A stretch of DNA of 11,195 nucleotides, taken from the NCBI GenBank assembly GCA_022843345.1, contig JALHNW010000030.1, positions 1 to 11,195 on the forward strand. The letters are read 5' to 3'. Positions 3,954-11,195 of this stretch are shown here, piece by piece. Within the stretch, counting starts at the first letter, position 1; every line of letters starts with the position of its first letter. The position numbers were made by a program, and so were the translations under genes. The notes beneath the pieces were generated by a model. That model worked only from the letters and a program-made list of their open reading frames with translations, had not been told where the DNA came from and ran no database searches. This DNA comes from Rubritepida sp. (GTDB taxonomy: Bacteria; Pseudomonadota; Alphaproteobacteria; Acetobacterales; Acetobacteraceae).

Positions 3954-3954
3954 T
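3935..3954. repeat. Perfect 7-bp inverted repeat touching the mor stop codon
   Basis: The arms ACCCCCG (3935-3941) and CGGGGGT (3948-3954) are perfect reverse complements around a 6-base loop, AGGGCG. The element abuts the stop codon of the Mor-family gene. As RNA it would be a strong stem, but no T-run follows on the minus strand, so it is not a typical intrinsic terminator. It could stabilise the mor message end, attenuate read-through, or be a protein-binding dyad. Confidence 0.5.
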
Positions 3955-4319
3955 CAGCCCTCGAACAGGTCCGGCTGGTGGGCCGTCAGGCGCGCGGCGC
4001 GAAGGTTTAGCCACACTGCGTCCTCGGTGATGCGCATCTGGCGCGCGATCTCGCTGTAGCTGTGGCCCTCGGCCTTCAGCACACGGATCTGCCAGTGGCG
4101 CGCGATGGGCACCTTGATCTCCTCGCCCCCGCGCCAGGTGGCCAGGGCCTGCGCCGCCTCCCGACCCACGGCCTGCACCAGCGTGCTGGATTGGTTCGGG
4201 TCCTTCGGGATGTAGAGCCGGGTGCCGCCGAAGGCGCGGATGAACGCGAGCAGCTGGGCGGGGCTGAGGTGCGCGGAAAGGTGGGCGAGTTCGGCGGGCG
4301 GCGGGGGGAGGTCGGGCAT
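3954..4319 (-). CDS. mor: Mor/C family middle-late transcription activator
   Basis: This 121-residue transcription activator of the Mu Mor/C family should turn on the genes after the early operon. Recognisable family elements are GGTRLYIPK at residues 31-39, a conserved helical dimerisation region, the GGEEIKVP strand-turn at 64-71, and a C-terminal helix-turn-helix at about 80-108 (VLKAEGHSYSEIARQM, then TEDAVWLNL). The length is close to Mu Mor (129). The start is ATG 4319; a GTG directly before it at 4322, closer to a GAGG sequence, is almost equally good. It lies about 24 bases after a 62-residue gene and just before the acb2 and lysis genes, matching the expected mor-to-late order. No second Mor/C copy is seen in the window. 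Confidence 0.9.
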   Translation of the reverse strand: MPDLPPPPAELAHLSAHLSPAQLLAFIRAFGGTRLYIPKDPNQSSTLVQAVGREAAQALATWRGGEEIKVPIARHWQIRVLKAEGHSYSEIARQMRITEDAVWLNLRAARLTAHQPDLFEG

Positions 4320-4343
4320 CACACCCGACCTCGGTTCGCGGCG

Positions 4344-4532
4344 TCAGCTCGCGATCTTGTAATGCTGGTCGCAGAGGCTGCACCCCAAGGCGCCCAGCCG
4401 TTCGGCCAGGTGCTTGAGCATGACGGCCAGTCCGAGGCGAACCTCGGCCCGCAGCGGTGCGTCATCGTCCAGCAGGTCGCCAAGCGCGTGCAGCGCCGTG
4501 GCGATGTCGATGGCTTCCTGGTGGTCAGGCAT
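4344..4532 (-). CDS. Small hypothetical helical protein, 62 aa
   Basis: This 62-residue protein starts MPDHQEAIDIATALHALGDL and overlaps the upstream regulator gene by 8 bases (4525-4532), which suggests coupled translation. It is acidic in its first half and predicted almost wholly helical. Two cysteines and a histidine lie close together near the C-terminus (GCSLCDQHYK). A single metal site would need partners from another chain, so metal binding is only a thought. I do not recognise a family. Its position between two regulators suggests an accessory to the middle-stage switch. Confidence 0.68.
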   Translation of the reverse strand: MPDHQEAIDIATALHALGDLLDDDAPLRAEVRLGLAVMLKHLAERLGALGCSLCDQHYKIAS

Positions 4533-5136
4533 GGGGCGGGTCGAAATCCAGCGCGGGCTGCGCGGCCAGCGAGGGGATTTCGGCCAGGATGCGCTCCAGC
4601 TTGCGCAGCTTTCGCAGGGCGTCGAGCGAGAGCCCGGACTGGGAGGCAAGGCGCGTGGCCTCGGCCCGCGCGCGCGCCTGCTGGCGCTGGTGCGCACTGT
4701 CCGCCGCGTCCATGGCATCCAGCCGGCCGATGGCCTGCCGCACCATGGGCTGCGCCAGGATGGCGCGGGCGTCCGGCAGGCGGGCCAGGGCGTCGCGCGG
4801 AGCGCGAGGCGCCGAGGCTCTGCCCTCCAGCATGTCCACCAGCCAGCGCCTGAGCCGCTTCGCCCGATTGTTGCTGACCTCCATGGCCACGTTCAGCACC
4901 ACCCGCAGGGTGTAGGCTCGGGTCGGCTGCTCGCCGCCCTCGGTGGGCCAGGGCACCAGCTCCGTGTGCCCCTCGGGAACCACCGAAGGGTCCCGCTCCA
5001 GGATGCGATAGAAGGTCGCCCGGTTGATCCCAAGGGTGTCGCAGATGTGCGACACCCTTACCCAGATTTGCGACACCCCTTGCAGCCCTTCCAGGCGGCC
5101 GACCGGGCTGCTGTAGACGATGATTTCGGAAGACAT
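4525..5136 (-). CDS. Putative phage DNA-binding regulator (HTH plus Bro-N/ORF6N-like region)
   Basis: This 203-residue protein starts at ATG 5136, with GGAG upstream. Residues about 25-47 look like a helix-turn-helix (RVSHICDTLGINRATFYRIL). Residues 52-72 contain a VPEGHTELVPWPTEGGEQ segment. Residues 74-99 (AYTLRVVLNVAMEV, then NNRAKRLRRWL) resemble the helical core seen in Bro-N/ORF6N phage antirepressor proteins. The rest is a basic helical tail with many arginines and a leucine-rich stretch (LRKLRKLERIL). It heads the block that ends in mor, so a regulatory role is inferred. The coding sequence carries a perfect inverted repeat at 5032-5059. I cannot place it firmly in one family. Confidence 0.72.
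   Translation of the reverse strand: MSSEIIVYSSPVGRLEGLQGVSQIWVRVSHICDTLGINRATFYRILERDPSVVPEGHTELVPWPTEGGEQPTRAYTLRVVLNVAMEVSNNRAKRLRRWLVDMLEGRASAPRAPRDALARLPDARAILAQPMVRQAIGRLDAMDAADSAHQRQQARARAEATRLASQSGLSLDALRKLRKLERILAEIPSLAAQPALDFDPPHA
5032..5081. repeat. 12-bp perfect inverted repeat plus a third near-copy
   Basis: AAGGGTGTCGCA (5032-5043) and TGCGACACCCTT (5048-5059) are perfect reverse complements separated by four bases, GATG. A third near-copy in the same orientation as the right arm, TGCGACACCCCTT, lies at 5069-5081. The element sits within codons about 19-35 of the regulator gene, giving the protein the near-repeat VSQIW/VSHIC. There is no T-run after it. It could be an internal operator, a recombination site or a regulatory RNA stem. 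Confidence 0.75.
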
Positions 5137-5440: not shown

Positions 5441-5968
5441 ATGCCCCTGGTGAAGATGACCGCTCTCGCGATTGTCGGGTGCTTGGCAATGGCCGCGCAC
5501 CCGGCCGCCGCACAGTCGAGGCAGCGGGCGGAGCCGGCGCCCATCTGGGGCGCACCCGTCGCGACCTTCGGGGCCGCCTACAACACCGCCGCGCGCCGCA
5601 TCAACCTCGCCACCCGCGCGATAGAGGTGGATTGCGGCGGACAGGTGCAGATCATCTGCCAATACCGCGCCGGCGGCACGGGCATCCTTGTTCGTGCTCA
5701 GGTCCGCGAACGGCAGGTGCAGGAAGTGACTATTGCCTTCGGGTCCGACAATCGTGAACAGACCATGCAGGCCTTGATGGCCATCGAAACCGTGATCGCC
5801 ATGGCTGAGCCTTCGGCCGATCCACAAGAACGAACGGCCGTCATCCGAACCCTGTTGCTCGACCCCGGCACTGCACCAGGGACACGCCGCGCCAGCTTGG
5901 GTGCGACCCGCTTCGAGGTGACGATAGCCCCGGGCGTCGGCATGTTCCTGAGTGCCAGTCCGCGCTGA
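5441..5968 (+). CDS. Predicted secreted protein on the opposite strand (candidate moron)
   Basis: This is the only plausible plus-strand gene in the window. Starting at ATG 5441, with GAGGA at 5429-5433 (7-base spacing), it encodes 175 residues. A clear Sec signal peptide is present: MPLVKMTALAIVGCLAMA, then AHPAAA-QS with an AxA cleavage site near residue 24. The mature part has two cysteines in VDCGGQVQIICQY, which could form a disulphide, and is mixed alpha/beta with no motif I know. In-frame ATGs at 5402 and 5423 would bury the signal peptide and are less likely. It sits between the early operon and the middle block, facing both, and its codon use is a little less GC-extreme. It could be expressed from the prophage to alter the host envelope; that is inference. 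Confidence 0.75.
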   Translation: MPLVKMTALAIVGCLAMAAHPAAAQSRQRAEPAPIWGAPVATFGAAYNTAARRINLATRAIEVDCGGQVQIICQYRAGGTGILVRAQVRERQVQEVTIAFGSDNREQTMQALMAIETVIAMAEPSADPQERTAVIRTLLLDPGTAPGTRRASLGATRFEVTIAPGVGMFLSASPR

Positions 5969-6065: not shown

Positions 6066-6254
6066 TCAGCTGGCCTTCGGCGCCGGCTCGGCCGCGCGCG
6101 CGACCTCCGCGTCCACGAGGTTGCCGATCAGCGCCTTGGCATAGCCCACGTCGCGGTCTCGGTCGGCGGCGCGGCCCTTTGCGGTGGGCGTCTGCGCGCG
6201 GGCATAGAGGTCCGTGAGGATGGCGCTAAGCCGCGCCTGGCCCTCGGGGCTCAC
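6066..6254 (-). CDS. Small hypothetical protein, last gene of the early operon, 62 aa
   Basis: This 62-residue protein starts with GTG at 6254, forming a GTGA overlap with the gemA stop, so it is translationally coupled to gemA. It is predicted helical (SPEGQARLSAILTDLYARAQ, then VGYAKALIGNLVDAEVARAA) and charged, with no cysteine or membrane segment. I do not recognise a family. It closes the early operon; downstream lie about 100 bases and then the end of the opposing plus-strand gene. No intrinsic terminator with a T-run is visible between the two convergent genes, only GC palindromes such as GCCCGGGC near 6052-6059. Confidence 0.65.
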   Translation of the reverse strand: MSPEGQARLSAILTDLYARAQTPTAKGRAADRDRDVGYAKALIGNLVDAEVARAAEPAPKAS

Positions 6255-6706
6255 GCCGCGTCGCCCCGCAGCCTGGCGCCCACCTGCAGCCGCCGGCGCC
6301 AGGCCTTCAGCCCTTCCAGCACCTTGTTCGCTTGCACGCTGTCCAGGAACTCCGGCGCGCTCACGCCCTGCGGGTTAGCGGCCGTCTGGGTCTGGCGCGC
6401 CGTGAACACGCGCAGCGCCGCCGCGTGGTCCTCCGCGTCCACGCCCAGCTTGCAGATGTCGGCCCACACCGCGTGGATCATGCGGATCTGCGCGTGCTTC
6501 GACATGGGGAGGCGCAGGCGGGGCATCGCCTTGAAGCCCAGGCGTTTAAACTCCTTCAGCACGGCCTCGATCTGCGGCTCGGTCATCGCGGTGGCGCTGT
6601 CTTGCCCCGTCACGCGGCGCAGCACGTCGCGGTAGCTTTCCTCGGTCAGCGCCAGGGCCTTCTTCGCCACGTGCAGCTTCGCGATCATCTTGGTGCGCGT
6701 GCTCAT
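6251..6706 (-). CDS. gemA: GemA-like regulatory protein (Mu gp16, DUF1018)
   Basis: This 151-residue protein matches the GemA/gp16 family. The N-terminal block MIAKLHVAKKALALTEESYR (residues 7-26), followed by DVLRRVTGQDSATAMTEPQ and a KRLGF motif near 54-58, is the typical DUF1018 signature. In Mu, GemA has been linked to modulation of host gene expression and DNA topology during the early phase; that role is knowledge about the family, not visible here. The chosen ATG 6706 has GGGA at 8-base spacing. A GTG at 6712 would overlap the upstream stop as GTGA but has a poorly spaced ribosome binding site. The gene occupies the end of the early operon, as in other Mu-like phages. Confidence 0.9.
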   Translation of the reverse strand: MSTRTKMIAKLHVAKKALALTEESYRDVLRRVTGQDSATAMTEPQIEAVLKEFKRLGFKAMPRLRLPMSKHAQIRMIHAVWADICKLGVDAEDHAAALRVFTARQTQTAANPQGVSAPEFLDSVQANKVLEGLKAWRRRLQVGARLRGDAA

Positions 6707-6708
6707 GC

Positions 6709-7245
6709 TCACATTCCCACTTCGATGGTGACGACGAGGCAGCCCGTGACGCGCTTCAACAGCGGCGCGAACTCGCGCTCGATGTGCTTCGCCACGAAGG
6801 CGCTGGGTGCCGAGAGCAGCAGCTCCTCGCTCGTGTCGCCCAGCACCTGGCAGCGGCCGATCCAGGCGCGGAAGGTCGGCAGGTCGAGGTGCGGCGCGCA
6901 GCGGGGCCACAGCGGGTGGTCCGGCGCGGCGAGCGAGGGCGGCGCGTGGGCGGCACCCTCGGCGGGCACATAGTCCTCCCACCGGCGCTGACGCAGGAAT
7001 GTGGCGGCGTGCACCACGAAGTCGCTGCCCAGGGCCTTCTGCGCGCACTCGGCCGCATAGGCGGCGGCGGCCTGCGTCAGCGCGGCGGGGCTCGCGCCGG
7101 CGCGCACGGCCTTGGCGAACTCGGCCTCGGCCAGGGCGCGGGGGTTGGGGCTGCGCTTGGGGTAGGCCAGCCAGAACAGCCGGAAGTCGGCGTCCAGGCG
7201 GCGCGGGATGCCCTTCTTGGGGAACATGGAGATCTGCTGGCTCAT
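6709..7245 (-). CDS. Replication-type protein with C-terminal DnaA domain I-like region
   Basis: This 178-residue protein appears to have two parts. Residues about 18-93 (FRLFWLAYPKR, then a helical stretch, then HAATFLRQRRWEDY) follow the pattern seen at the ends of phage replication/primosome proteins. Residues about 110-176 resemble DnaA domain I: LWPRC, FRAWIGRCQVLG, LLLSAPSAFVAKHIEREFAP, then VTIEV. In DnaA that domain mediates self-contact and interaction with DnaB helicase and DiaA. No AAA+ or DNA-binding domain follows. It is coupled by ATGA to the 335-residue gene upstream. A plausible role is recruiting the host helicase or replisome to the transposition intermediate; this is inference. 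Confidence 0.75.
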   Translation of the reverse strand: MSQQISMFPKKGIPRRLDADFRLFWLAYPKRSPNPRALAEAEFAKAVRAGASPAALTQAAAAYAAECAQKALGSDFVVHAATFLRQRRWEDYVPAEGAAHAPPSLAAPDHPLWPRCAPHLDLPTFRAWIGRCQVLGDTSEELLLSAPSAFVAKHIEREFAPLLKRVTGCLVVTIEVGM

Positions 7246-8249
7246 GCCACGGCACTCCGGGCGCCGGGCGCGTCGGCCCTCGCGGCGATGGCGTAGGGGG
7301 GCAGGCCGTGGCGGACGCGGCGGGTGTTGCACTCCGTCAGCAGGCCGCGCGGCGTGAACAGGGCCAGCCGCTGTTCGATCTCGGCGTGCTTGGCGCGGGC
7401 GCCGCGCTCGCGCAGCAGCTCCTCATAGAGCCAGTTCGTCGCGTCCTCGATGCTGGCGGGCACGGCCTCCAGCGCCGAAAGGTCCGGCGGCGGCGCTTCG
7501 TTGGGCGTGCGATTGGGCAGGGCGACCGTCTCGGGCGTGGCCAGCCAAGCGCGCGCGGCATCCGCCGCCGGCCTCGATGTGCTGCCATTCACCCAAGCGT
7601 TCAGGCAGCCGCCGTTCATGCCCATCTGCCTCTCGGCTGCGGTGAAGCTCAGCCGCTGGCGGGCCATCCGCGTGCGCACGGCCTGGCGCAGCGCGTCCAA
7701 CTCGCTGGGCGGGAACGCGGCAAGCGCCTCGTGCTGCTGCGCGCGCTCGATCACGGCATCAACCTGGCGGACCATGTCGGCGACGATCGGCGCCGCGGTC
7801 GTCGCGAAGCCCTCCATCGCCGCCTGAACCTGCGGCGCCACGGCCGCCGCGGCCTCGCCGAAGCGCGCCGCCGCCGCCGCCACCGCATCGGCCAGGCCGT
7901 CCTGCGCGGCCTCGGCCTCGGTCGCGCCGGCACCGTTGATCTCATTGCGGCGTCGCGCGTCCTTCTGGCGCTTCCATTCCCGCTGCCGCTGGCGCTTGCG
8001 GGCCAGCCGCTCCTCCTGCGTCCCGGCCGGTGCCCGCCCGCGGCGCTTGCCCTCGGCCGCCGTGTCCGGGGCACCCTCCAGGCAGGCCGTCATCAGCTGC
8101 TCCACCACCGCCCGCTCAGGCGAGGGCTGGCCTTGCAGCGCATCCGCCGCCACGCGCAGGCAGGCGCGCATGACGTGCACCGGGATGGGCTGGGTGCGGG
8201 GCGCAAGCATTCGCTCGATGCCCACCAGCAATTGCACCGCGTCAACCAT
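7242..8249 (-). CDS. 335-aa basic/HTH protein of the early operon, function unknown
   Basis: This protein has several regions. A short helical N-terminus is followed by a strongly basic stretch at about residues 66-101 (KRRGR, then ERLARKRQRQREWKRQKDAR). Next is a long alanine-rich helical or coiled-coil part at 112-175. A possible helix-turn-helix lies at about 186-237 (MARQRLSFTAAERQMGMNGG, then LNAWVNG), similar in style to the xxNxWLNG end of Cro/MuB-type HTHs. A charged C-terminal helical part follows (ASIEDATNWLYEELLRERGA). ATG 8249 has GGAG at 7-base spacing and overlaps the previous gene by 8 bases. I do not recognise the family; nucleic-acid binding is inferred from the basic and HTH-like regions. 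Confidence 0.72.
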   Translation of the reverse strand: MVDAVQLLVGIERMLAPRTQPIPVHVMRACLRVAADALQGQPSPERAVVEQLMTACLEGAPDTAAEGKRRGRAPAGTQEERLARKRQRQREWKRQKDARRRNEINGAGATEAEAAQDGLADAVAAAAARFGEAAAAVAPQVQAAMEGFATTAAPIVADMVRQVDAVIERAQQHEALAAFPPSELDALRQAVRTRMARQRLSFTAAERQMGMNGGCLNAWVNGSTSRPAADAARAWLATPETVALPNRTPNEAPPPDLSALEAVPASIEDATNWLYEELLRERGARAKHAEIEQRLALFTPRGLLTECNTRRVRHGLPPYAIAARADAPGARSAVA

Positions 8250-8691
8250 GGTCGCTCTCCATCAGGATGCGCCGCCAGCCGTGCAGGGCGGCGCGACAGA
8301 GGGCCAGCGCGGCATCCGCGCTGGTGGCCTCGAAGAAGGTGGCCTGGTCGCGCGCGGTCCAGCCGAAGCCATGGCCGCGGCGCCGGCCGCTGCCATAGTC
8401 CCAGCCGGGCGGCACCAGGATGGCGGTGCCGTCCGTGAGGCGCGTCACGGGCGGCATCGGCATCCAGGTCGAGGCAAGGGGGCTGCGCACGCGCCAGCAG
8501 GCACGGGGCGCGGCGGGGCCCTCCGCGCGCCAGCCCAGCGCGCGGAAGATGTCGGACTCCAGCTCGGGGCCGCTCTCCATGGCCTCCAGCCGCTCGATGA
8601 CGAGGCCGATGGCCGTCAGGTCCCGCGGGCGGAACACGGCATGCGCGGCGCGCAGGCCGCACTGGCGGGGGCGGATGATCATCATGGTCAT
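8242..8691 (-). CDS. Hypothetical protein resembling phage ABA-sandwich domain proteins, 149 aa
   Basis: This 149-residue protein starts MTMMIIRPRQCG in an ATGA overlap with the upstream gene. The middle and C-terminal part has the spacing seen in small phage proteins of the ABA-sandwich type: SDIFRALGW, then a tryptophan-containing strand region (ACWRVRSPLASTW), a PPGWDYGSG turn, and a final helix ATSADAALALCRAALHGW. The hydrophobic and tryptophan pattern fits, but there is no catalytic motif and I could not align it formally. The N-terminal part contains LTAIGL, shared with the 77-residue protein two genes upstream. Function is unknown. Confidence 0.7.
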   Translation of the reverse strand: MTMMIIRPRQCGLRAAHAVFRPRDLTAIGLVIERLEAMESGPELESDIFRALGWRAEGPAAPRACWRVRSPLASTWMPMPPVTRLTDGTAILVPPGWDYGSGRRRGHGFGWTARDQATFFEATSADAALALCRAALHGWRRILMESDHG

Positions 8692-8954
8692 GCCGCGCGC
8701 CTCGGCAGCGCCGCCAGCAGGCCGGAGACCTCGGCGCGGTAGCGGGTGATGCAGTCGGCCCGCTCGGCCTGGGTGCGCGCCTCGGCATAGCCGGGCACGC
8801 GGCGGCAATCGGGCCGGCGCTCGGCCGTGTAGACCAGCGCGACCACCAGCGAGGGCGCCTCTCCGGAGACAATGAGCTGCGCGGTGTGCGGCACGGTGCG
8901 CAGCACGCCGAGGCGGCCCTGCGGGTCGGCGCAGAGGTGGGCGATGACGTTCAT
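8688..8954 (-). CDS. Hypothetical protein, 88 aa
   Basis: This 88-residue protein begins MNVIAHLCADPQGRLGVLRT in an ATGA overlap with the previous gene and ends in an ATGA overlap with the next. The pattern is a short beta-rich N-terminus (LGVLRTVPHTAQLIVSG, then LVVALVYTAER) and a helical C-terminal third (ERADCITRYRAEVSGLLAAL), suggesting a small alpha/beta fold. Three cysteines are scattered and do not form a zinc motif. I recognise no family. Codon use and third-position GC agree with the neighbours, supporting a real gene. Confidence 0.65.
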   Translation of the reverse strand: MNVIAHLCADPQGRLGVLRTVPHTAQLIVSGEAPSLVVALVYTAERRPDCRRVPGYAEARTQAERADCITRYRAEVSGLLAALPRRAA

Positions 8955-9184
8955 GCCGGCACCGCCACGTCGAGCGCGAGGCCGATGGCGGTCAGGCAAG
9001 GGTTGGCCAGGCCATAGCCGCAGCCGCACATGGCGCCACCGTCCCGGAGCGTCGCGCAGCACGCCCGGACATCCTCAATGCGCGGTAGCTCGGCGCGATC
9101 CAGGCCATTCCAGCGTCGCGCATTTCGCAGCGCTGCCTTTCCACGAGCAGCCCAATCCATGCGCTGCTCAAGCGTCGCGATCAC
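8951..9184 (-). CDS. Small cysteine-rich hypothetical protein, 77 aa, GTG start
   Basis: The GTG at 9184 overlaps the gam stop as GTGA, the same architecture as its neighbours, and gives 77 residues. An internal ATG at codon 9 is an alternative. The N-terminal half is basic and helical (MDWAARGKAALRNARRW). The C-terminal half has five cysteines at 42, 43, 53, 55 and 63 (ACCATL, MCGCGYG, NPC), enough for a small metal site though the spacing is not a standard zinc finger. It ends with LTAIGLALDVAVPA, part of which recurs in the 149-residue protein. No family recognised. Confidence 0.6.
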   Translation of the reverse strand: MIATLEQRMDWAARGKAALRNARRWNGLDRAELPRIEDVRACCATLRDGGAMCGCGYGLANPCLTAIGLALDVAVPA

Positions 9185-9702
9185 GCCGCCACCTCGACCG
9201 TCACCGGCGTGACCACGAACTCCTCGCCGTCGCTGGCGATGGTGACGCCCGCCACGGTCGCGGCGATGGCCGGCTCGGCCAGCATCGCCTCCTTGTTCAC
9301 CTCGACCTTGCGGCGCAGGAAGCGCTCCAGGCCCACGCGCTGCAGGAGAGCGACCACTGCCGGCATGTCCTTCACCTTCACGCTGGGCGGCTTGGTGCGC
9401 CACGACATCTCGCCCGTGGCCAGCTTCACCGTCTTGGTGCGGTTGCCATCGGTCAGCGTCAGCCGGTTCGCCGTCGCCCAGATTTCCAGGCCGCGCGTCA
9501 GCAGCGCGGCCTCCTCGGTCAGCGGGCGCGAGGTGGCCTCGGCCGCCTCCTTCGCCTTCGCGATCGTCTCCTCGGTCGCCTTGGCCAGCACCGCCTGTTC
9601 GCGCTGGATGGTGCCGAGGCGCGCCAGCGCCGCCTCCGCTTCCGCGCGGTTCTGCGGCACCGGCGCCGCCTCCGCCGCGCGCTTGAGCTTCGCCTTGGTC
9701 AT
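9181..9702 (-). CDS. gam: Mu Gam-like host-nuclease inhibitor, DNA-end binding protein
   Basis: This 173-residue protein is almost the same length as Mu Gam (174). Gam is a Ku-like DNA-end binding protein that shields linear phage DNA from host exonucleases such as RecBCD. The N-terminus is a long helix (NRAEAEAALARLGTIQREQA, then LAKATEETIAKAKEAAE). A compact domain follows with the family pattern LLTRGLEIWATANRLTL, KTVKLATGEMSWRTKPPSV and a C-terminal LERFLRRKVEVNKEAML. The ending (GVTIASDGEEFVVTPV) is also typical. It is coupled by ATGA to the DnaA domain IV-like gene and by GTGA to the next gene. Early-operon location agrees with Mu. Confidence 0.94.
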   Translation of the reverse strand: MTKAKLKRAAEAAPVPQNRAEAEAALARLGTIQREQAVLAKATEETIAKAKEAAEATSRPLTEEAALLTRGLEIWATANRLTLTDGNRTKTVKLATGEMSWRTKPPSVKVKDMPAVVALLQRVGLERFLRRKVEVNKEAMLAEPAIAATVAGVTIASDGEEFVVTPVTVEVAA

Positions 9703-10016
9703 GCTGTGAGGGTCTCCGGGTTGAGGATGGTCCGTGCCCGCGCCACGCGGGCCGCGTAGCCGGGGTCGTTCTTCATGCGCGCCTGGTGCACGCGCAGGCC
9801 GTGCAGCACCGTGGTGTGGTCGCGCCCCATGGCGCGGCCGATGACGGGCAGGCTGCGCGGCGTCATCTCGCGCGACAGCGCCATGGCCGCGTGGCGCGCC
9901 TGCACGGCGGCCTGGTGGCGCCGCTCGCTCAGCAGCTCCGCCAGCGGCTCGTTGAAGGCGGTGGCGACGGCGGCTAGCACCTGGCGCACGGTGGGGGTTT
10001 CGAGGTGCTGGCTCAT
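9699..10016 (-). CDS. Stand-alone DnaA domain IV-like DNA-binding protein, 105 aa
   Basis: This 105-residue protein consists mainly of the DNA-binding domain of the replication initiator DnaA. Residues about 35-73 show the domain IV signature: AVQARHAAMALSREM, then SLPVIGRAMGRDHTTVLHG, including the GRDHTTV motif that contacts DnaA boxes. A short helical segment precedes it (TVRQVLAAVATAFNEPLAEL), like the start of domain IV. There is no AAA+ domain and no Walker motif. The length excludes a truncated gene, because start and stop both form ATGA overlaps with intact neighbours. It may bind DnaA boxes in the host origin or phage DNA, either recruiting replication factors or competing with host DnaA; the choice is inference. 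Confidence 0.88.
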   Translation of the reverse strand: MSQHLETPTVRQVLAAVATAFNEPLAELLSERRHQAAVQARHAAMALSREMTPRSLPVIGRAMGRDHTTVLHGLRVHQARMKNDPGYAARVARARTILNPETLTA

Positions 10017-10183
10017 GTCAGCAAGGACGCGGTCCAGAGGGCCAGGGCATGAAAGATGCCGGCCAGAACGGTCAGGCCCGCTCTGGTCTCCGGCGACACC
10101 CTCATGTCGCCGGCCACCGACGAGCAGAACGTGCCGCAGCCGGTCAGCGCGAGGGCCAGCACCCAGCCGATGACGGCGCTCAT
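10013..10183 (-). CDS. Tiny membrane or lipoprotein-like protein, 56 aa
   Basis: This 56-residue protein, coupled by ATGA overlaps on both sides, starts MSAVIGWVLALALTGC. Residues 13-16 (L-T-G-C) match a lipobox after a short hydrophobic stretch, so C16 could be lipidated. A second hydrophobic segment lies at about residues 36-55 (AGLTVLAGIFHALALWTASL), which a simple lipoprotein would not need. It may therefore be a two-helix inner-membrane protein instead. I recognise no family. Small envelope proteins in early phage operons sometimes block superinfection; that role is only suggested by size and location. Confidence 0.62.
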   Translation of the reverse strand: MSAVIGWVLALALTGCGTFCSSVAGDMRVSPETRAGLTVLAGIFHALALWTASLLT

Positions 10184-10362
10184 GCGAACCACGCCACGAG
10201 CAGCATCGCGAGGTACATGCGGCCGAACGACGCGCAGGGCAGCCCGTAGGACACGCGGCGGCTTCGGACGCCCTGCTGCCGCCCTGCCCCATGCAGGAAG
10301 GCCGCGCAGTAGGCGAAGAAGCACAGGGGCGTCACCGCCACCCAAAGCAGGAAGCCGCTCAT
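10180..10362 (-). CDS. Tiny two-helix membrane protein, 60 aa
   Basis: ATG 10362 overlaps the MuB stop as ATGA and gives 60 residues. There is a hydrophobic helix at about 3-23 (GFLLWVAVTPLCFFAYCAAF). A basic loop follows (GRQQGVRSRR at 28-36), then a short hydrophobic end at 48-59 (RMYLAMLLVAWF). The basic loop predicts cytoplasmic placement between two membrane passes. A longer reading from ATG 10401 is possible but would overlap muB heavily. No family recognised; with its neighbour it forms a pair of tiny membrane proteins in the transposition operon. Confidence 0.62.
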   Translation of the reverse strand: MSGFLLWVAVTPLCFFAYCAAFLHGAGRQQGVRSRRVSYGLPCASFGRMYLAMLLVAWFA

Positions 10363-11195
10363 GCCGCCGCCCCGGCCGAGCCCGCGCCCAGCCGCTCCCA
10401 CGCCAGCCGCACATCCTCGGCCGAGAGCGCGCGGCCCTCATTCCGCGCGACCATCTCCGCCAGGCGCCAGCACTTGTTCAGGTTGCGCAGGCCGCCGGCA
10501 TACTTGGCCACCGCGCGCAGATGATCCCGCGCATCGCCGCCGGGCACGCCCCACGCATCCAGCAGGGCGTTGATGTCGCCCGCCAGCGGCTTGGGCCGCT
10601 TCAGCCGCATGCCCACCCGGCTGTAGAGCTGCGCGAACTCCGCGCGGTGCTTCCCGCCCTCCAGCCGCCCCACGATCGCGTCATTGCCCACGAGGGCGAC
10701 GCCGACCTCGCACTGGTCGTGGAAGGCGCGCAGCTGGTCCAGCATGCCGCTGTTCAGGTGCTGCGCCTCGTCAATGACCAGCAGCCCGCGCCGGCCGACC
10801 AGCTTGCCCTTGATGCTGTTGCTCAGGCTGTCCGGTGAACCGCGGCCATAGGCGCCGACCATGACCGCGATGGCCGAGAGCAGCGCGCGCGTGGTGCTGA
10901 TCGCGGGCTCCGCCACCAGTTTCCACACGTTCGGGTTGGTGCGGGTGTACTCGCAGGCGGCGGAGGACTTGCCGGTGCCGGGCGCGCCGGTCACCACCAC
11001 CATGTCCGGCATGTGCTGGGCATGCGCCAGCACGTCCAGCACCGCCTGGGCCGTGGGCGTCACCACGAAGCGCGGCGGCAGCGGGGCCGTGCCGCGCACC
11101 TGCACGGCCTTGGTCCGGTTCGCCATCCAGCGGCGCAGCTTGGTCGCGATGCGGCTGCCATCGCCGCCATAGGTGCCGCCCAGGAAGGGCGTCAG
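10359..11195 (-). CDS. MuB-like AAA+ transposition ATPase (5' end outside window)
   Basis: This is the target-selecting ATPase that binds DNA and activates the MuA transposase. The frame is open to the right edge: 23 codons (LTPFLGGTYGGD and onward, ending RRW) precede the first internal ATG at 11126. They look like the end of an N-terminal HTH as in Mu B, so the start lies outside the window. Motifs, numbered from that ATG, are Walker A GAPGTGKSS at 48-56 and Walker B GLLVIDEAQHL at 114-124. A sensor-1-like VALVGND lies at 143-149 and a conserved FAQLYSRVGMR, with a candidate arginine finger, at 164-174. A C-terminal helical domain follows (LRAVAKYAGGLRNLNK). The transposase gene should lie just to the right. 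Confidence 0.93.
   Translation of the reverse strand: MTPFLGGTYGGDGSRIATKLRRWMANRTKAVQVRGTAPLPPRFVVTPTAQAVLDVLAHAQHMPDMVVVTGAPGTGKSSAACEYTRTNPNVWKLVAEPAISTTRALLSAIAVMVGAYGRGSPDSLSNSIKGKLVGRRGLLVIDEAQHLNSGMLDQLRAFHDQCEVGVALVGNDAIVGRLEGGKHRAEFAQLYSRVGMRLKRPKPLAGDINALLDAWGVPGGDARDHLRAVAKYAGGLRNLNKCWRLAEMVARNEGRALSAEDVRLAWERLGAGSAGAAA

Follow-up and report, generated by a model that had tools for sequence, protein, structure and literature searches.

The window analyzed here is the whole stretch of 11,195 nucleotides at positions 1 to 11,195 of contig JALHNW010000030.1 (C30) of Rubritepida sp. (GCA_022843345.1, Acetobacteraceae), and its minus strand encodes the early portion of a Mu-like phage. 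One gene of this part encodes a protein in which a phage replication-initiation module is followed by a DnaA domain I, and another encodes a DnaA domain IV on its own. We suggest that the fusion protein may be a helicase-recruiting adaptor of the phage, a reading drawn from sequence comparison that we consider quite possible, just short of probable. The basis is one draft genome at contig level (2.5 Mb in 465 contigs, 84% complete), and its relatives are mainly metagenome contigs. The features of first concern are the following.

6709 to 7245, minus strand: 178-aa fusion of a phage replication-initiation module and a DnaA domain I
6946 to 7239, minus strand: N-terminal module of the fusion, the C-terminal module of phage replication initiators (phrog_270)
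6709 to 6924, minus strand: C-terminal DnaA domain I of the fusion
9699 to 10016, minus strand: stand-alone DnaA domain IV protein of 105 aa (PF08299, 3.5e-20)

Residues 109 to 178 of the fusion are a DnaA domain I, on which sequence, profile (PF11638) and structure concur, as the original prediction had proposed for this C-terminus. Chance resemblance is ruled out by 46 of 48 relatives together with the fold match. A broken dnaA gene is also ruled out: neither DnaA-like protein has a Pfam match to the AAA+ domain III, and both genes are open and overlap their neighbors, just as had been claimed from the letters alone. Compared with DnaA, the phage pieces share the folds and families and, in most relatives, the W25/F46 face and the DNA-contact positions, whereas they are two separate proteins lacking domain III, with domain I placed C-terminally behind a phage module. 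As regards the helicase loader DciA, the sequence matches DnaA_N and not DciA, and the structural Z score is tied with those of unrelated chains. As described in PMC5448010, Glu21 and Phe46 of E. coli DnaA bind DnaB, while Glu21, Trp25, Asn44, Phe46 and Trp50 matter for DiaA. Among 84 homologues, W25 is kept in all 84, F22 in 83 and F46 in 79; an acidic residue is found at position 21 in 67, D49 in 64 and W50 in 61.

The N-terminal part (residues 14 to 109) matches phrog_270, annotated as 'replication initiation protein' (1.2e-18). This family is found in 37 of 37 members of the module alignment (A3), nine of which come from loci where no Mu-like gene was found, and the module's list of 10 PHROG families includes no named function other than replication. 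The helical module is therefore common to the fusion and the phrog_270-type initiators, from which the fusion differs by lacking an N-terminal DNA-binding part (about 14 residues precede the first helix of the module), by carrying a DnaA domain I and by occurring in a transposing phage. In locus L034, the module comes after a winged-helix-like N-terminus (recognized by eye), and it stands alone in L036, L037, L039 and L043. The L034 protein matches 19 phage records, annotated as replication initiation protein, replication protein, RepA-like initiator or DnaD-like helicase loader, besides one MerR-like DNA-binding protein and some hypothetical proteins.

Outside enterobacteria, the PriC/DnaT/DnaC route of E. 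coli may not exist, and a DnaA domain I that a phage has joined to a replication module is a concrete candidate for the helicase loading of Mu-like phages there. With E. coli proteins in vitro, Mu passes from the MuA transpososome through ClpX, further factors, PriA, PriC, DnaT and DnaB-DnaC to the replisome, as outlined in PMC3334882, and DnaC/DnaI are stated to be lacking from most bacterial genomes (PMC9825169). If the fusion is an adaptor, its N-module would tie it to the phage replication complex or to the fork, and its domain I would hook host DnaB, as the interface residues suggest. DnaB would thereby be brought to the fork left by MuA strand transfer, and the fusion would replace the PriC, DnaT and DnaC steps on which Mu relies in E. 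coli. The domain IV protein would act elsewhere, as a separate DNA-binding factor. A replication module joined to a DnaB-binding domain I would be a fitting substitute: the fusion itself, its fold, its genomic context and, for most relatives, the conservation of the face are observed, and DnaB binding and the role at the fork are predictions. The helicase recruitment that had been proposed for the domain I protein is plausible, and gains from the fused replication module and from the conservation of the DnaB face in most relatives.

Forty-six loci were found through the domain I protein. By local profiles, 33 contain the fusion; in the remaining 13, the N-module is the only part that these profiles detect. 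The 33 fusion loci also contain GemA (33), domain IV (31), MuB (31) and Gam (28), and the order MuB, domain IV, domain I, GemA is never broken wherever the parts are present. Domain IV is missing in L030 and in L014, the latter cut by a contig end. Pfam searches largely agree with these profiles; PF11638 missed the fusion in L008 and stayed below the cut-off in L006, L031, L038 and L048; the L030 record has no more than a weak, distant PF08299 match.

A second sampling was made through GemA, regardless of either gene. Of 367 genomes sampled from the class, 20 carry GemA, and of 395 from the order, 42 do (the window genome belongs to both sets). The resulting 68 loci comprise 5 with both pieces, 5 with domain IV only (L073, L075, L083, L091 and L100), 6 with domain I only and 52 with neither; seven of these 52 show no MuB either, several of the seven being short or cut. 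Three domain I-only loci (L114, L126 and L128) lie at contig ends, and the genome of the last two (G619) has domain IV and MuB on other contigs. The other three (L080, L081 and L088, with a weak domain I in L088) belong to genomes G214 and G311, where no domain IV was found except that of DnaA. In a MuB tree of 81 rows, the pair falls into a main group without strong support (85/87) and, besides, into L029 of a distant group; this distribution takes at least 3 changes. When only the 54 MuB-bearing loci of this sampling are considered (5 with both, 5 with domain IV only, 1 with domain I only, 43 with neither), the association has a Fisher p of 4.4e-4 before kinship correction. After it, there are 0 concordant independent pairs, with just 2 to 3 pairs available, too few for significance.

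From both samplings, the MuB tree and the kinship test, it follows that the two genes are separable, not obligate, and linked by descent in one lineage. Co-occurrence holds in that lineage (31 of 33 loci), while each piece is found alone in other Mu-like prophages, an outcome that the original prediction had itself named as counting against a joint assembly. The genes are not kept together as a split-DnaA pair, and an obligate pair was rejected as unproven.

The position of the fusion gene varies in its distant form, which in the other alphaproteobacterial Mu-like prophages L080, L081 and L088 sits after GemA and not before it. In the Roseomonas-type relative L011, the gene directly before the fusion (L011:9629-10000) encodes a staphylococcal-nuclease-like protein (PF00565, 4e-11).

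Among the eight cassette parts compared, divergence is greatest in the two DnaA-like domains, with median identities of 35% and 38% vs 42 to 60% for the others. Of the 34 fusion-bearing sequences, 24 were used to measure covariation, namely those in which all seven parts are present once four had been left out. Once the other genes are accounted for, the distances of domain IV and domain I have a partial r of 0.05, a value reached in 92 of 400 permutations. Domain IV covaries with the N-module of the fusion (0.31, 0/400) and with its neighbor Gam (0.49, 0/400); Gam covaries with the N-module to the same degree as domain IV does (0.31, 0/400).

In 12 close Roseomonas-type relatives, picked by hand, median identity is 93 to 94% for MuB, GemA and Mor, 85% for Gam and 84% for the N-module. 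Here domain IV falls into two classes (80 to 99% identity within, 54 to 62% between) and domain I into five (80 to 98% within, 44 to 65% between). These classes reassort: L010 and L022 are alike in domain I (97%) and unlike in domain IV (57%), and the two sets of classes have a Mantel r of 0.08, with 420 of 2000 permutations as high. Variability is not confined to the DnaA pieces, since the ORF directly after GemA in L011 (L011:11216-11599), without Pfam match, is the most variable of 22 ORFs compared in this locus, with 51% median identity in 11 of the 12 relatives.

Among the 84 homologues, 370 pairs have N-modules at least 90% identical and 96 of these pairs have less than 50% identity in domain I. 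The 44 homologues whose N-module is at least 80% like that of P0058 have domain I in 6 or 7 classes (70% or 75% threshold), P0044 being a singleton class with an odd C-terminus. N-module identity is 0.88 between and 0.89 within domain I classes, vs 0.51 and 0.81 for domain I itself. At the DNA level, L022 and L023 are 75 to 90% identical in the module, 37 to 55% over domain I and 85 to 98% beyond it, and the like-class pairs among the ten pairs examined show no drop in domain I. Seven class representatives keep W25 and the AP..FHRDWVR stretch (with F46, D49 and W50), and the classes retain the fold together with the face used by E. coli DnaA to bind DnaB. They do not mirror host DnaA, since its domain I is nearly identical in three such hosts (L142, L143 and L145).

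As far as the sequences can tell, recombination, with or without diversifying selection, explains the class pattern. We also put forward, with considerable doubt, that Acetobacteraceae Mu-like phages keep a swappable domain I helicase hook: a near-constant replication module would carry one of at least 6 divergent domain I classes with a common fold and DnaB-contact face, the remainder of the domain being possibly under diversifying selection and domain IV varying independently. If so, the diversity of domain I might serve the escape from host proteins that recognize DnaA domain I, or might block mixed assembly between phages replicating in the same cell. The allele classes could also be used as natural variants for mapping the contact between domain I and DnaB.

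Several observations weigh against the adaptor role of the fusion. The window copy of domain I is among the less canonical ones: E21, D49 and W50 are replaced by T, K and H, respectively, W25 and F46 being kept. No PDB structure gives a confident fold match to the N-module. The fusion is missing from most of the Mu-like prophages sampled, as the 52 GemA loci with neither piece indicate, and L100, which lies inside the main MuB group, seems to have lost it but retains domain IV. In addition, no DciA was detected in the draft genome of the host, whose completeness is just 84%.

The domain IV-like nature of the protein at 9699 to 10016 had also been recognized correctly. In what we take to be the E. 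coli numbering of the DNA-contact positions, the window copy keeps the equivalents of R399, R407, D433, H434, T435 and T436. Across 32 loci, aligned together with two host DnaA sequences, R407 is kept in 32, and R399, D433 and T436 in 31 each. H434 and T435 are kept less often (26 and 15 loci), with T435 changed to A in 13 loci and H434 to R in 6. We infer that this protein is most likely a separate sequence-specific DNA-binding factor, with an action either on the DnaA boxes of the host or in early regulation, rather than a partner that turns domain I back into DnaA.

No exact DnaA box (TTWTNCACA) is present in the window. Boxes with one mismatch number 3, vs 1.67 expected, and 54 of 200 shuffles reach as many. 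Exact boxes are found in 46 of 139 loci, 1 to 4 in each (raw counts, without an expectation), many of them being host chromosome stretches or phages without the fusion. Pairs of boxes less than 140 bases apart occur in L011 (L124 is the same stretch), L095, L099, L109 and L121. Five of the 34 fusion-bearing sequences have a box, just 1 or 2 each, with two only in L011. Since boxes are scarce in the phage while the contact positions are kept, the targets of domain IV may lie in the host.

This last point favors a takeover of the host, the chief rival to the adaptor role, with which it has most of the evidence in common. The domain I protein would compete with host DnaA for DnaB, or for a DiaA-like partner, while the domain IV protein would occupy the DnaA boxes of oriC, so that host initiation would stop and the replisome would be freed for the phage. 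The strong divergence of both DnaA-like domains also speaks for it. According to the description in PMC4776307, YfdR of the cryptic prophage CPS-53 works on the DnaA domain I interface, binding domain I and moderately inhibiting its partners; YfdR binds the domain, whereas the window phage itself encodes one. On the other hand, a replication module would not be expected on a pure inhibitor, and the altered recognition motif (T435, H434) makes binding to host boxes doubtful in some relatives. We consider a takeover possible but rather unlikely.

It could also be that neither protein takes part in replication, the domain IV protein being a transcription regulator of the early operon and the domain I protein serving as an accessory in GemA or Mor control. 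The helix-turn-helix nature of DnaA domain IV and the five Mu-like loci with domain IV and without domain I would agree with this, yet the named functions of the PHROG families matched by the N-module are all in replication, and we regard such a role as improbable. Even less credible is the single DnaA-like assembly of the original prediction, with domain IV binding DNA, domain I recruiting the helicase and MuB as the ATPase: the linkage and constant order among loci found through domain I, the uncorrected Fisher test and the covariation of domain IV with the N-module speak for it, the last being equaled by Gam, while the occurrence of each piece alone, the lack of concordant independent pairs (of the few available), the near-zero partial covariation, the reassorted classes and the absence of an exact box speak against it.

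DnaA pieces on alphaproteobacterial mobile elements are already known. PMC10732058 describes 10 to 23 copies of DnaA N-terminal domain genes per Orientia genome, dnaA marking the ends of the RAGE elements, and PMC2635572 describes DnaA-like proteins encoded on a Rickettsia felis plasmid. Compared by description only, these are conjugative elements and plasmids, not Mu-like phages, and the text available from both sources mentions no phage replication module. What is new is the occurrence of discrete domain I classes on a near-constant N-module. In the open-licence PMC literature searched, no phage with stand-alone DnaA domains is named in the titles and abstracts listed, and we saw no report of DnaA pieces that occur in Mu-like phages or are joined to a replication module of phage type. 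Two tblastn queries found no fusion among 50,697 phage records, and the Mu-like alphaproteobacterial phages StopSmel and POA1180 show no DnaA piece among five early proteins scanned in each.

The minus-strand series of the window runs from MuB through the domain IV protein, Gam, small genes, a 335-aa protein, the fusion, GemA and a Mor-like activator to an amidase and Gp27. The presence of MuB, Gam, GemA, Mor and Gp27 assigns it to a Mu-like transposable phage; MuA is not seen because the contig terminates within MuB. The remaining features are given below.

10359 to 11195, minus strand: MuB transposition ATPase, truncated 5' where the contig stops (PF09077, 2.3e-17; AAA_22, 1.9e-16; phrog_296, 3.3e-60)
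9181 to 9702, minus strand: Mu Gam-like end-protection protein (PF07352, 1.6e-30)
8951 to 9184, minus strand: small ORF without Pfam match
8688 to 8954, minus strand: small host-nuclease-inhibitor-like protein (phrog_1518, 2e-5)
8242 to 8685, minus strand: conserved cassette protein of unassigned function, without Pfam or PHROG match, present in related loci
7242 to 8249, minus strand: 335-aa protein with a region resembling the N-terminal part of MuB (phrog_296 profile 226-288, 5.3e-5)
6251 to 6706, minus strand: GemA (PF06252, 3.2e-27)
3954 to 4322, minus strand: Mor-like late transcription activator (phrog_836, 3e-22; PF08765, 2.2e-5, 24.8 bits, just below the cut-off of 24.9)

None of six proteins scanned matched anti-phage defence families. 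In L027 and L029-L033, the reading frame of GemA also contains a second GemA repeat, which is partial. Between GemA and Mor, an HTH protein (4525-5136) has anti-repressor-like PHROG matches (phrog_5060, 6e-7), and an opposite-strand ORF (5441-5968), without Pfam match and with a signal-peptide-like start by eye, separates the early and late phage parts and is possibly a moron. Two small ORFs that appear hydrophobic by eye lie between MuB and the domain IV gene (10013-10401). An iterated profile of the 335-aa protein also matches the N-terminal frame of the window's own MuB, a result that iteration may inflate; the N-terminal domain of MuB may have been duplicated, apart from MuB itself, in this and several related phages.

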